Shown: in pieces, positions 6,744 to 57,935 of the stretch
Layout: each line of letters opens with the position of its first letter
Position numbering within the stretch: the stretch's first letter is position 1
Assembly: GCF_025869515.1 (NCBI RefSeq)
Contig: NZ_JAOZVR010000041.1
Span: 1 to 64,000 of the forward strand
Origin: Ferrovibrio sp.
GTDB taxonomy: Bacteria; Pseudomonadota; Alphaproteobacteria; Ferrovibrionales; Ferrovibrionaceae
DNA length: 64,000 nt
Direction: 5' to 3'
Notes under the pieces: generated by a model
Database searches by the model: none
Seen by the model: the letters and a program-made list of their open reading frames with translations, nothing else
What the model was told of the DNA's origin: nothing
Position numbers and translations under genes: made by a program

Positions 6744-7889
6744 TCACGCAGAGGCGTGCCTGCGTGCCCGCCGCCGCCGGGCGAGATCGCGCTGCTGGCG
6801 CAAGGCCCGCCAGTACATCCAGGCACCGCTGAAGACCAGTGCGGTCAGCCCGCCGCCGAAGAGAAACCAGACCAGCCGCGACCAGATTCCGGCGAAATCG
6901 CCGAAATGCAGCGGATTGACGGTCGCGCGCCACCGCGGCCAGAAGCCCTGGCCGGCGATGCGTTCGACGCCCAGCACGGCGCCGGTTTTCGGATCGAGAT
7001 ACACCTTGTTGGCGCGATCGCGCACCATCAGGTTGCCGGCCTGGCCGTCGAAACGCAGCGCATCGCCGTTGCGGCGCGGAAAATACACCGCAGCGATCCT
7101 CAGTTCCGGAAATGCCGCCTGCGTCAGCGCCGTCAGTTCGTCGAGCGGCAGCGCCGCTGCTGCCGACAGCGTGGCTTTCGGCGCCGGCGGCTCCAGCGAT
7201 GTGCCGAGATCGTAGAGCAGCCGTTCGGCGAAATACCACATGCCGGTCAGCGAAATCGCCAGCAGAAACCATAGCGACCATCCGGCCACCAGGCGATGCA
7301 GATCGTTGAGCAGCGGCCCGATGCCATGGCGCAGCCGCAAACGGAACAGGCCGCGCCAGAACTGCGGATAGATCACCAGGCCGCTCACCAGCATGAACAG
7401 AAGGATCAGTGCGAAGGGCGTGCTGAGATAGATGCCGACATTCACATCGCCGACATTGGGCAGGTGGAACTGCCGGTGCAGCTGGCGCAGCGTGGACTGG
7501 ATAGTGTCGCGACCGCCATCGCCTGTGACGATGGCGCGGTAAGGATCGATATAGACCAGCCGCGGCTGCCCCTGCGCCGCAATCATCCGCGCCTCGGCCG
7601 CAAACCGGCTGCCCTGCGGCAGGGTGATGCGCTGCAAGGTCCAGTCCGGATAGCGGTCGCGGATCGTCGCTTCCATGCGGCCCCAGCTGACATAGGTGCC
7701 GGGCACCACACCATCCGGCACCCCGACGCGCAGCGCCGGCCGGACAAGCCAGTCGAGCTCATGGCCGATGGTGGTCAGCGTGCCGAACAGGCAGAGCCAG
7801 CCCAGCACCAGGCAGAGCCAGAAGCCCAGCAGACCATGCAGGCGCCGCATCGCGCGCCGGTCGACCAGGGCTTTCAGGCGCGCTGCCAT
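6744..7889 (-). CDS. PepSY-associated transmembrane protein
   Basis: A 381-residue inner-membrane protein of the PepSY-TM family often paired with TonB-dependent siderophore receptors, some members of which are thought to reduce ferric siderophores. The first helix is LHGLLGFWLCLVLGWLCLFG (about 18-40); further helices lie near 150-175 (FALILLFMLVSGLVIYP), 195-220 and 340-365 (LVWFLFGGGLTALVFSGAW). PepSY-like segments sit in the periplasmic loops (TLPQGSRFAAEARMI; LDELTALTQAAFPELRI). The start is eight bases after the receptor stop, so the two genes form one operon. The iron-reductase role is inferred from context, not shown. Confidence 0.88.
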   Translation of the reverse strand: MAARLKALVDRRAMRRLHGLLGFWLCLVLGWLCLFGTLTTIGHELDWLVRPALRVGVPDGVVPGTYVSWGRMEATIRDRYPDWTLQRITLPQGSRFAAEARMIAAQGQPRLVYIDPYRAIVTGDGGRDTIQSTLRQLHRQFHLPNVGDVNVGIYLSTPFALILLFMLVSGLVIYPQFWRGLFRLRLRHGIGPLLNDLHRLVAGWSLWFLLAISLTGMWYFAERLLYDLGTSLEPPAPKATLSAAAALPLDELTALTQAAFPELRIAAVYFPRRNGDALRFDGQAGNLMVRDRANKVYLDPKTGAVLGVERIAGQGFWPRWRATVNPLHFGDFAGIWSRLVWFLFGGGLTALVFSGAWMYWRALRQQRDLARRRRARRHASA

Positions 7890-7897
7890 GGCCGCCG

Positions 7898-10021
7898 CTA
7901 GTATTTCGCGCTGATACGCGCCAGTACGGTGAGCGGCGCGCCGGCATAGATCTCGGTGCGGCCGACCGGCGTCTCGATATAATCGGCATCGAACAGGTTC
8001 TTCGCCGCGAGCGACAGGCGGATACGCTCGTTCAGGTCATAGAAAACCGTGGCATCGACCCGCGCATAGCCGGGTACCGCAAAGGTATTGCCGATCTCGC
8101 CGACCCGATCGTCGACCGCGATCAGGCCGCCGCCAAACCCGAAGCCGCGCAGCGGACCGCTGAGAAACTGGTAGGTCGACCACAGGCTGCCGCTCCAGCG
8201 CGGGGCGCCGGCCAGGCTGTTGCCCTGATACAGGCTGTCCTTCGTCACCTTGGTGTTGAGATAGGCACCGCCGAGCATGACCTGCCAGCCCGGCAGGATT
8301 GTGCCGGTGACGTCGAGTTCGACGCCGCGCGAGCGCTGTTCGCCGGTGGCAACCGAAAAATCGTCGTTGGCCGGATCCTCGGTCGCCACATTCTGGCGGG
8401 TCAGGTTGAACACAGCGAGCGTGGTCGACAGACGATCTGGAATGATATCGAGCTTGGCGCCAACCTCGTATTGCTGGCCGGTTTCGGCGGCCAGCGCCTG
8501 GCCGCTGGAATCGGTTGCCGTCTGCGGCTTGAAGGATTCGGTGTAGCTGGCATAGAGCGCCAGCGGCTGGACTGGCTGGTAGACGATACCGGCACGCGGA
8601 CTGAAGGCGCTGTCGGATTGCGCGGTGCGCGTATTCGTGGTGGCTGTGGTCTGCGTATCGACCTGGCTGAAACTGTCGAAACGGCCGCCGACGATCAGCT
8701 TGACCTGCTCGGTCAGGGCGATCTGGTCCTGCAGATAGGCAGCATACATATCCACGTCATGGGTCTGCGCCGTGGCGCTGATGAAGCTGCCCGGTGTCGC
8801 ACCGTAGACGGGATTGTAGATGTTGATGCTGCCGAGGTTATACAGCCGCCAGTCGAGATCGCGCACCGCCTTGCTGTATTCGCCGCCCATCAGCAGGGTG
8901 TGCGCGACCGGTCCGGTATCGAATCGTGCCGTGGCGTCCAGGATGATGTCGCCATAGCGCGTGTCGTCGTTCTGAATACGCGCGCGGCGGGTCAGCACAC
9001 CGGTGGTGGCATTCACTGCCTGCGGATCGGCGCTGTAACGGTAGGAATCGCCGCGGTCCAGTCGCGTGATCTGGCGCAGCGTGAGCCAGTCGTTGACGTC
9101 ATGCTCGAAACGGTATTGCAGCATCGTCTTTTCGGATTCGAAAACCGAAAAGCGCTCGCCGAGATAGCGGCTGGTGGGGAGTGGAGCAACGCGCGTGCCG
9201 ATGGCGACCAGGCCGCGGTCGAAAGGCTGGGTCTGGTCGGTATAATCGAGACCGAAGGTCAGGCGGCTGCGATCATTCGGAGTCCAGAGAAACACCGGCG
9301 ATACCGTCTTGCGTTCGGAATCGGTGAAGAAATCACGGAAGCTGTCGCTTTCCTGGTAGGCCGCGGTGATGCGCGCCGCCAGGGTCTTGCCATCATCCAG
9401 CGCCGAAGTGGCATCGGCTTCGGCGCGGCGAAAATCATAGGAGCCGATTTCCAGCGAACCGCCGACGGCCGGTGCCGACTGCGGTTTCCTGGTCACGATA
9501 TTGATCAGGCCGCCGGGATCGCCCTGGCCGAACAGCACCGAAGCCGGGCCTTTCAGCACTTCCACCCGCTCGACATTCGACAGATCAAGGAAGGTCTCGC
9601 TGGTGAAGAGCGGATTGTTGACCACGCCGTCGCGCGCATAGGTCTCGGAACGGAAACCGCGAATGGTGAAATTCTCGGCGCGATTGCCGATGGTGGAGCC
9701 GGGCTGCACATTCGGCACATTGAGCAGCACGTCCACCAGGCGGTTCGCCTGCTGGTCCTCGATCGCCTGGCGCGGGATCACGTTGACCGCCTGCGGCACC
9801 TCTTTCAGCGGCGTGTCGGTCTTGGTGCCGGTGGCCGAGCGCGTGGCGCGATAGCCCTCGACCGGCCCATCGGCCTGTTCGGCCGGACGCTGGCCTTCGA
9901 CCTGCAGCGCCGGCAATTGCGCCGGCGGCGGATTGTCCGTCGCGGTTTGCGCCAGAGCCGGGGCGGCCAGGAAGAAAAGGGCGAAACGGGCGGTGGACAG
10001 CAACAGGCGGCGCGCGGCCAT
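7898..10021 (-). CDS. TonB-dependent siderophore receptor
   Basis: An outer-membrane gated channel for ferric siderophore uptake. From the chosen ATG (10021) the protein has 707 residues: signal peptide MAARRLLLSTARFALFFLAA ending ALA-Q, a plug domain (PQAVNVIPRQAIEDQQ, NFTIRGFRSE, VERVEVLKGPASVLFGQGDP) and a C-terminal 22-strand barrel ending in the aromatic residue of ISAKY. The track start at 10120 adds 33 residues ahead of the signal peptide and is unlikely. GGAG lies eight bases before ATG 10021. A Fur-like site lies about 100 bases upstream, consistent with iron repression. The plug wording fits the FhuA/FpvA-like siderophore subfamily; the specific ligand is unknown. Confidence 0.95.
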   Translation of the reverse strand: MAARRLLLSTARFALFFLAAPALAQTATDNPPPAQLPALQVEGQRPAEQADGPVEGYRATRSATGTKTDTPLKEVPQAVNVIPRQAIEDQQANRLVDVLLNVPNVQPGSTIGNRAENFTIRGFRSETYARDGVVNNPLFTSETFLDLSNVERVEVLKGPASVLFGQGDPGGLINIVTRKPQSAPAVGGSLEIGSYDFRRAEADATSALDDGKTLAARITAAYQESDSFRDFFTDSERKTVSPVFLWTPNDRSRLTFGLDYTDQTQPFDRGLVAIGTRVAPLPTSRYLGERFSVFESEKTMLQYRFEHDVNDWLTLRQITRLDRGDSYRYSADPQAVNATTGVLTRRARIQNDDTRYGDIILDATARFDTGPVAHTLLMGGEYSKAVRDLDWRLYNLGSINIYNPVYGATPGSFISATAQTHDVDMYAAYLQDQIALTEQVKLIVGGRFDSFSQVDTQTTATTNTRTAQSDSAFSPRAGIVYQPVQPLALYASYTESFKPQTATDSSGQALAAETGQQYEVGAKLDIIPDRLSTTLAVFNLTRQNVATEDPANDDFSVATGEQRSRGVELDVTGTILPGWQVMLGGAYLNTKVTKDSLYQGNSLAGAPRWSGSLWSTYQFLSGPLRGFGFGGGLIAVDDRVGEIGNTFAVPGYARVDATVFYDLNERIRLSLAAKNLFDADYIETPVGRTEIYAGAPLTVLARISAKY

Positions 10022-56505: not shown

Positions 56506-56668
56506 ATGCCGCCGCGACATACAGGAGTATATGGCGTGGAGTACAAGAGCATGTAAATCGCATCGGGCCGGATCGTTCGATGCGATTCACAAAGACGACA
56601 TGCTGAAAATGTGATGGCATTGCCCCGGGGAAAGCGGGGGCAGTGCAGCGATCCTGCGCTGGGCAGCA

Positions 56669-57913
56669 ATGCAAAAGCTAAGCAGCGAAATACGCAGGTG
56701 CGCCAGCATTGCGCTTGTTGTCATTGTCGGACTGGTGGTGTTCGTTGGCGGCATATGGGTGCTGGAATTTCTGTTCTTGAAGCTGTTCCGGGATACTCTT
56801 GATATTAAGTCCGCCATTACCTTGGTCGCCACAACCGGTGTGGGCCTGGCGCTTGCTTTACTGTTGGCGCCGATCACCCGGTATGTTGCGGTGACGCAGC
56901 CGGCGCGGCGCGAATCGGTCGAGAGCTACTACAAGGCCAAGACCATCGCCGAATACCTGCAGCAGTTCCGGTCCTCCGGTGACCTGTGCAGTATGCTGCA
57001 GAACTGGCAGCCGGGTACCGATCCGGGCAAGGCTGAGAGCGAAGCAGTGAAAGAGAAGTTCACGCTTATCCTGGATGAATGTTTCGGCGCCAAGCGCTTC
57101 TACTATGCGCTGGTGCTGCTGGTGCTGATCAGTGCGCCGATCCTGTTCGGCGCCATCGAGAGCGGGCTGATCCTGGTCAGGAACGGCTACAAGACATCCG
57201 GGGCTGAGGCCATGCACGTCCTCGGCTTGCGCGCCGACAAGATCAGCATTGCCGCCATCGCCGGTGCCTACACCTGGATCGTCGGCGATGCGATCACCCG
57301 CAATTACCAGGGCACGCTGAACGTTTCGCATCTCTACTGGTATGCCCTGCGCATGCTGATCGCGGTGCCGCTGGGTTACGCCATCGCCAAATTCACCACC
57401 GATGCGTCCTTCGGCACTGCCATCGCCTTCCTGATCAACCTGTTCTCTTATGATCGCATCAGCTCGATTTCTGCCAGCCTGGTCAATCGCGCCCTGAATA
57501 TGCCGGCATCGGCGGCGGACGAGAACAAGGACATTCTGATCAAGCTGCCGGGCATCGATACCCGCACGGCCGAAATCATGGCGGCCGAAGGCATCACCAC
57601 AATTGCCGGGCTGGCTGCCGCTGATCCGATCCTTGTCGCTGCGCGGACGGGACTGCCCTTCGATCTGGTCGTGCGCCGGATCGATGCGGCGCTGCTCTGG
57701 CAGTATGCGGGCACCGATCTGCTGGTCATGCAGCATTTCGGCTGGGCGGGTGCCAGCGACGTGATCGACTACCAGATGGCGCCGGTGCCAGCGCTGCTGA
57801 CCGATATGGCACTGCTGACGGCCGGAAAAAACGTCGCTAGCCTGGAGAACATCGTCAGGCAGGTGAATGCCAATGATTACGCCCAGTTCATCCGGCGCCT
57901 GATCCGCAGCTGA
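56669..57913 (+). CDS. Unrecognised membrane protein with C-terminal helix-hairpin-helix-like segment
   Basis: A 414-residue protein. Helices: IALVVIVGLVVFVGGIWVLE (about 13-32), ITLVATTGVGLALALLLAPI (about 49-68), FYYALVLLVLISAPILFGAI (about 145-165), then ISIAAIAGAYTWIVGDAITR and ALRMLIAVPLGYAIAKFTTD. From about 288 the sequence turns soluble: ILIKLPGIDTRTAEIMAAEG then ITTIAGLAAADPILVAARTG, which has the L-P-G-I-x2-x2-A pattern of helix-hairpin-helix motifs (compare LPGIGPKTAxxL). I do not know the family. HhH motifs usually bind DNA or serve as protein contacts, so the combination with a membrane domain is unusual. It is monocistronic. Confidence 0.75.
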   Translation: MQKLSSEIRRCASIALVVIVGLVVFVGGIWVLEFLFLKLFRDTLDIKSAITLVATTGVGLALALLLAPITRYVAVTQPARRESVESYYKAKTIAEYLQQFRSSGDLCSMLQNWQPGTDPGKAESEAVKEKFTLILDECFGAKRFYYALVLLVLISAPILFGAIESGLILVRNGYKTSGAEAMHVLGLRADKISIAAIAGAYTWIVGDAITRNYQGTLNVSHLYWYALRMLIAVPLGYAIAKFTTDASFGTAIAFLINLFSYDRISSISASLVNRALNMPASAADENKDILIKLPGIDTRTAEIMAAEGITTIAGLAAADPILVAARTGLPFDLVVRRIDAALLWQYAGTDLLVMQHFGWAGASDVIDYQMAPVPALLTDMALLTAGKNVASLENIVRQVNANDYAQFIRRLIRS

Positions 57914-57935
57914 CGATGCCTCACACCGCCCGGGC

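Follow-up and report, generated by a model that had tools for sequence, protein, structure and literature searches.

In a 64,000-nucleotide stretch of the Ferrovibrio sp. contig NZ_JAOZVR010000041.1 (the window), one gene encodes a membrane protein with a helix-hairpin-helix (HhH) tail; it is called here the TM-HhH gene (TM, transmembrane). Our favoured, tentative reading is that its product sits in the inner membrane and, through a tail resembling the AR2 domain of NusA, brings a protein partner there; the gene would be accessory and horizontally moved. A docking platform for hydrolase-type proteins is more likely than an anchor of the chromosome origin, the role that the first-pass annotation had offered as speculation. 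In the proposed mechanism, six TM helices would anchor the protein so that both termini face the cytoplasm. The AR2-type HhH at the C terminus and the loop of residues 68-144 would together offer a surface for binding proteins and so draw a cytosolic protein to the inner membrane. In many relatives the recruited partner would be the adjacent hydrolase, mostly signal-less, or the machinery handling that hydrolase, and at the membrane the TM-HhH protein may store, silence or pass on an enzyme that would damage its own cell. The reading draws on results that the computations gave directly, namely the fold of the tail, its resemblance to AR2, the lack of the hairpin that contacts DNA, the status of the gene as an accessory insertion and the repeated adjacency of hydrolase genes.

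The helix-hairpin-helix tail

The structure of the tail alone was predicted with AlphaFold2 at a mean predicted local distance difference test score of 90, rising to about 95 within the HhH. AlphaFold2 and Foldseek agreed on an HhH fold of two helices and a hairpin. Foldseek matched the tail with a probability of ~1.0 to the HhH units of NusA AR2, RadA and the Y-family polymerase Pol iota (52-61 residues, root-mean-square deviation (rmsd) 0.9-2.1 Å); the NusA AR2 structure 6ib8_C was aligned across 61 residues with a probability of 1.0 and a TM-score of 0.80 on the target. The accompanying E-values were ~0.3 or worse because the HhH domain is small. With the whole model no match over the whole chain was obtained in the PDB, and the tail gave just weak HhH-like matches among viral models. 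At the sequence level, Pfam HHH_5 matched the tail alone with an E-value of 4.4e-5 (24.3 bits, below the curated cut-off of 27) and the whole protein with 7.7e-4 (20.3 bits, also below it). A search of the PDB sequences with a profile built from 25 family tails had three NusA AR2 structures as its top matches (E 0.003-0.004). The predicted HhH of the tail is, judging by these models and profiles, more than a chance resemblance. NusA AR2, which binds proteins, is the nearest HhH by sequence and one of the nearest by fold.

AR2 of NusA is a dual HhH (PMC6614801) and is described as a platform that recruits alphaCTD, NusG, SuhB and lambda Q (PMC7171158). Besides the fold, it shares with the window protein and its family the pattern D.LL.L.GV......L...GV.T.E.LA and the absence of the second hairpin glycine; the hairpin reads LNLEGVDRD in NusA AR2 and LPGIDTR in the window protein. 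The transcription factor NusA, however, is soluble and binds RNA polymerase; in the window protein the domain is attached to six TM helices and has an additional helical extension behind it. The N-terminal HhH of RadA/Rad51 has the same backbone fold (rmsd ~1 Å across 52-54 residues), and one relative, P0002, matched the NCBIfam RadA model across the HhH stretch with an E-value of 8e-5, below cut-off; the window protein differs in lacking the ATPase core and in being a membrane protein. ComEA is likewise an HhH protein of the cell envelope (PMC3879209), but the window protein has six TM helices, a cytosolic tail and no G-h-G (GhG) hairpin.

The GhG hairpin forms the backbone contact of DNA-binding HhH units (PMC3905867, PMC3783174). 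It was found in 0 of the 39 aligned members; GVT stands in its place nearly throughout, GMT also occurs, and the window protein has GID. The net charge of the HhH among these members is neutral to acidic (-3 to +1). DNA binding is therefore less likely, although T4 RNase H, which binds DNA without GhG (PMC3783174), keeps it conceivable. The first-pass annotation had the protein tether DNA or a complex to the membrane. The hairpin, the charge and the kinship with a protein-binding AR2 speak against the DNA part of that proposal, while the complex part is compatible with them.

Topology and features of the protein

The open reading frame lies exactly where the first-pass annotation had placed it, is intact, starts with ATG and is present as a single copy in its genome. 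Hydropathy recovered the five hydrophobic segments described before (residues 14-32, 49-67, 145-163, 192-210 and 222-240), and the model and the charges of the loops point to a sixth, weaker and shorter TM helix at 246-258. The N terminus, the turn at 211-221 and the stretch past TM6 are basic, and the periplasmic loops are near-neutral with frequent cysteine pairs. Because of the sixth TM helix and this positive-inside pattern, both termini are predicted to be cytoplasmic. The earlier description as a membrane-anchored HhH protein thus agrees with six predicted TM helices and a C-terminal HhH tail. The string quoted there, ILIKLPGIDTRTAEIMAAEG, was located at residues 289-308, and the second helical repeat corresponds to model helices 312-316, 320-327 and 331-355, which complete the HhH domain and are followed by further helices. 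The features are as follows.

56669..57913, + strand: coding sequence of the six-TM/HhH membrane protein, 414 amino acids (open reading frame, translation; relatives align over the full length)
56708..56764, + strand: predicted TM1, residues 14-32, N terminus inside (hydropathy, loop charges; model helix 2-39)
56813..56869, + strand: predicted TM2, residues 49-67 (hydropathy and predicted model)
56870..57100, + strand: large cytosolic helical loop, residues 68-144, with the conserved R...E......YL..F (alignment A3); model helices 90-100, 104-110 and 121-139
57101..57157, + strand: predicted TM3, residues 145-163 (hydropathy and predicted model)
57158..57241, + strand: periplasmic loop, residues 164-191 (at least two cysteines in 25 of 39 aligned members)
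57242..57298, + strand: predicted TM4, residues 192-210, with invariant Gly199 and Asp207 (hydropathy, alignment A3)
57299..57388, + strand: cytosolic turn and TM5, residues 211-240 (family signature LNVSxxYWYALRxxxAxPL, invariant columns of A3)
57404..57442, + strand: predicted TM6, short, residues 246-258 (model helix, loop charges; followed by a basic stretch in the family)
57530..57691, + strand: AR2-type HhH domain, residues 288-341 (Pfam HHH_5, AlphaFold2, Foldseek, PDB profile search; hairpin GID replaces GhG)
57734..57910, + strand: C-terminal helical extension, residues 356-414 (AlphaFold2 helices 362-368, 374-383, 389-401 and 403-413)

Relatives and their neighbouring genes

About 50 relatives were recovered, all from Proteobacteria. 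They come from Burkholderia and Paraburkholderia replicons and from 38 genome loci of Paraburkholderia, Burkholderia, Caballeronia, Trinickia, Pseudomonas, Chromobacterium, Silvimonas and a Rhodovastum metagenome-assembled genome (MAG), with more distant relatives in other Alphaproteobacteria and Proteobacteria. Among the 385 genomes sampled from the class the family is rare, with members in 5 of them, counting the window's own. No close homologue turned up when the genome contigs were scanned with just the window protein, so no near relatives are present there, and viral contigs and phages yielded none either. A diverse alignment of six members was too divergent for a pattern scan, for which the Burkholderia/Paraburkholderia subset was used. 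The annotated records consulted list members as hypothetical, and none of the Pfam, NCBIfam, PADLOC and PHROG models gave the tested core members a match above cut-off or a consistent assignment; for PADLOC, the cores of P0001, P0002, L020, L024 and L065 matched no defence model. Judged from these searches, the proteins appear to form an undescribed family. Distant members next to truA-dapE (L063, L066) and pyk-fusA (L064, L087) occupy apparently stable housekeeping positions, unlike the mobile members.

Adjacent same-strand genes at the loci of the relatives repeatedly encode hydrolases, among them enzymes acting on lipids, the cell wall or DNA. A GDSL lipase gene follows 3-31 bp downstream in six loci (L004, L024, L036, L038, L039 and L041) and lies upstream in the distant L065; decayed GDSL remnants stand directly downstream of intact membrane-protein genes at L022:9282-9400 and L023:9327-9600. 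A phosphoesterase is the neighbour in four loci (L027, L030, L034 and L054) and a peptidoglycan-binding protein with a weak GH19 match in L025 and L026. An Rv2525c-like glycoside hydrolase (DUF1906) adjoins L040, a patatin L052, CBAH L033 and, according to the record annotation, DUF2272 L086. The nonspecific nuclease Endonuclease_NS adjoins L002 and occurs within about 350 bp in L065, both distant members. The eCIS_core domain of extracellular contractile injection systems (eCIS) adjoins L019-L021 and is one gene further away in L003. Simple hydropathy found most partners to lack an N-terminal signal. No such partner stands next to the window copy.

In the tree, the type of partner switches between members that are 54-69% identical, which argues for a generic role and not for partner-specific immunity. 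An immunity protein against an adjacent or incoming toxic hydrolase, of which the window copy would be an orphan, is accordingly rather improbable. It would fit the tight pairing with enzymes able to act as antibacterial effectors, the persistence of an intact membrane protein beside decayed GDSL genes (L022, L023), and the proximity of eCIS_core in four loci and of a protein read as VgrG by eye in L053/L045. Protection specific to one partner, however, should not fit an unrelated lipase, phosphoesterase and peptidoglycan hydrolase among such related members, and no sheath of a type VI secretion system (VipB) or eCIS_core was detected in the window genome, where the eCIS control was silent as well, so that the absence of eCIS_core is weak.

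Export or lysis was weighed as well, with the protein passing signal-less hydrolases across the inner membrane or triggering their release in a holin-like manner. The frequent lack of an N-terminal signal and the recurrence of peptidoglycan hydrolases (GH19, DUF1906, DUF2272) would suit such a helper; eCIS-producing cells have been discussed as fated for lysis (PMC8213781), and holin-dependent export without large lesions has been described (PMC9527704). With its six TM helices and a large folded tail in the cytosol, however, the protein does not resemble a holin, and several partners are lipases or nucleases, which leaves this reading quite unlikely.

Several points weigh against a platform that recruits hydrolases. 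Binding, the identity of the partner and the function of the membrane protein are what we infer, and the Foldseek E-values of the tail, taken alone, are not significant. No hydrolase neighbour was found in L028, L029, L031, L032 and L037, nor in the pyk-linked L064/L087 and the dapE-linked L063/L066. Signal peptides are present on CBAH in L033, on the nuclease in L065 and probably on that in L002. In favour of the platform, genes lying beyond 3 kb at the relatives' loci encode ordinary regulators, transporters and metabolic enzymes, but this near/far comparison covers phylogenetically related loci with kinship ignored, used differing strand rules and counted as "effector-like" what the authors judged to be so.

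A broader version of the recruiting platform is unlikely, though worth stating: a sparse but widespread family of inner-membrane adaptors whose AR2-like HhH holds interchangeable signal-less hydrolases at the membrane and which thereby handle antibacterial or lytic effectors in general, those of contractile injection systems among them. Should the tail recruit the hydrolases encoded next door, a single constant membrane protein would work with many unrelated enzymes, and a handling component would be added to toxin and eCIS loci. Antibacterial toxins newly verified by Geller et al. mostly had no recognisable immunity genes (PMC8213781). L003 and L019-L021 resemble the accessory and toxin loci of eCIS (eCIS_core/DUF4157) in sitting with eCIS_core, an AAA protein and GH19-like genes; eCIS genes adjoin just these four relatives, and the window copy and most relatives differ in this respect.

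Two further observations concern the surroundings of relatives. A CBASS-like operon (cyclic-oligonucleotide-based antiphage signalling; CD-NTase-like protein, patatin) was recognised by eye near a family member at L050:6068-9952. Near Silvimonas and Chromobacterium members, a Pfam-unmatched family with the pattern LGPLA.L.GTW.G.G.N recurs (L033:6698-7891, L046:6744-7628 and L056:4286-5188).

Insertion site and the chromosome origin

The gene is an accessory insertion and has probably moved horizontally. Its extent was delimited by comparison with congeners and by the drop in GC content.

56506..57935, no strand assigned: approximate accessory insert of ~1.4 kb, from the major facilitator superfamily (MFS) gene to the DUF255 gene

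Congeners keep the gene order MFS - DUF255 - two small genes - mnmE, and the TM-HhH gene is absent at the site. The MFS and DUF255 genes abut in G005, are separated by about 110 bp in G001 and, in G002, enclose unrelated sequence of ~640 bp (L082:4070-4710). GC content is 0.599 in the TM-HhH gene versus 0.684 in the upstream MFS gene. Only one of nine sampled congeners, G002, carries a relative, which is distant (29% identical), placed elsewhere and near a gene that reads by eye as integrase-like; in the other eight none was detected. For a mobile-element origin, no transposase or integrase was seen adjoining the insert within the window, and direct repeats at its edges were just short and chance-like. 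The gene looks recently acquired. The MFS-DUF255 gap near mnmE itself looks like a genus-variable insertion site, holding the TM-HhH gene here, other sequence in G002 and nothing in G005.

Recent insertion, atypical GC, the missing partner, a search that found no sigma-70-like promoter for the gene and the single distant copy among congeners would all suit a passenger gene that is functionless at present in the window strain. Against this, the 414-codon frame is intact, GC at third codon positions is 0.78 versus 0.43 at second positions, and the family-invariant residues are kept, so we consider a mere passenger improbable. A search against Rfam gave no match.

The first-pass annotation had put the gene about 24 kb from the putative origin. 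This is loosely right in that parB lies ~14 kb downstream on the same contig; dnaA, however, is on a different contig, and in the complete congener G005 it is 1.19 Mb from parB. GC skew does not switch inside the window. Because the gene is an accessory insertion at this site and dnaA is that far from parB in G005, an origin role tied to it is unlikely. The origin anchor was rejected on synteny: congeners with the same origin-proximal gene order lack the gene, the one distant copy is elsewhere, and relatives were recovered mostly outside the mnmE/mnmG/parAB region.

Least probable of the readings weighed is a tether, in which the HhH in the cytosol would hold DNA without sequence specificity and so fix the origin-proximal part of the chromosome to the membrane. 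The HhH fold, a cytosolic tail that could reach DNA, the nearby parB, the precedent of T4 RNase H and the position of the window member and L052 near mnmE/mnmG would agree with it. The hairpin and charge of the HhH, its kinship with AR2, the insertion of a gene undetected in most congeners and the location of most relatives elsewhere, on plasmids and islands, do not. The docking platform remains preferred. The one relative found inside the mnmE/mnmG/parAB region, L052 from the Rhodovastum MAG, lies between mnmE and mnmG (7632-9086), so that two distantly related Alphaproteobacteria have a member there.
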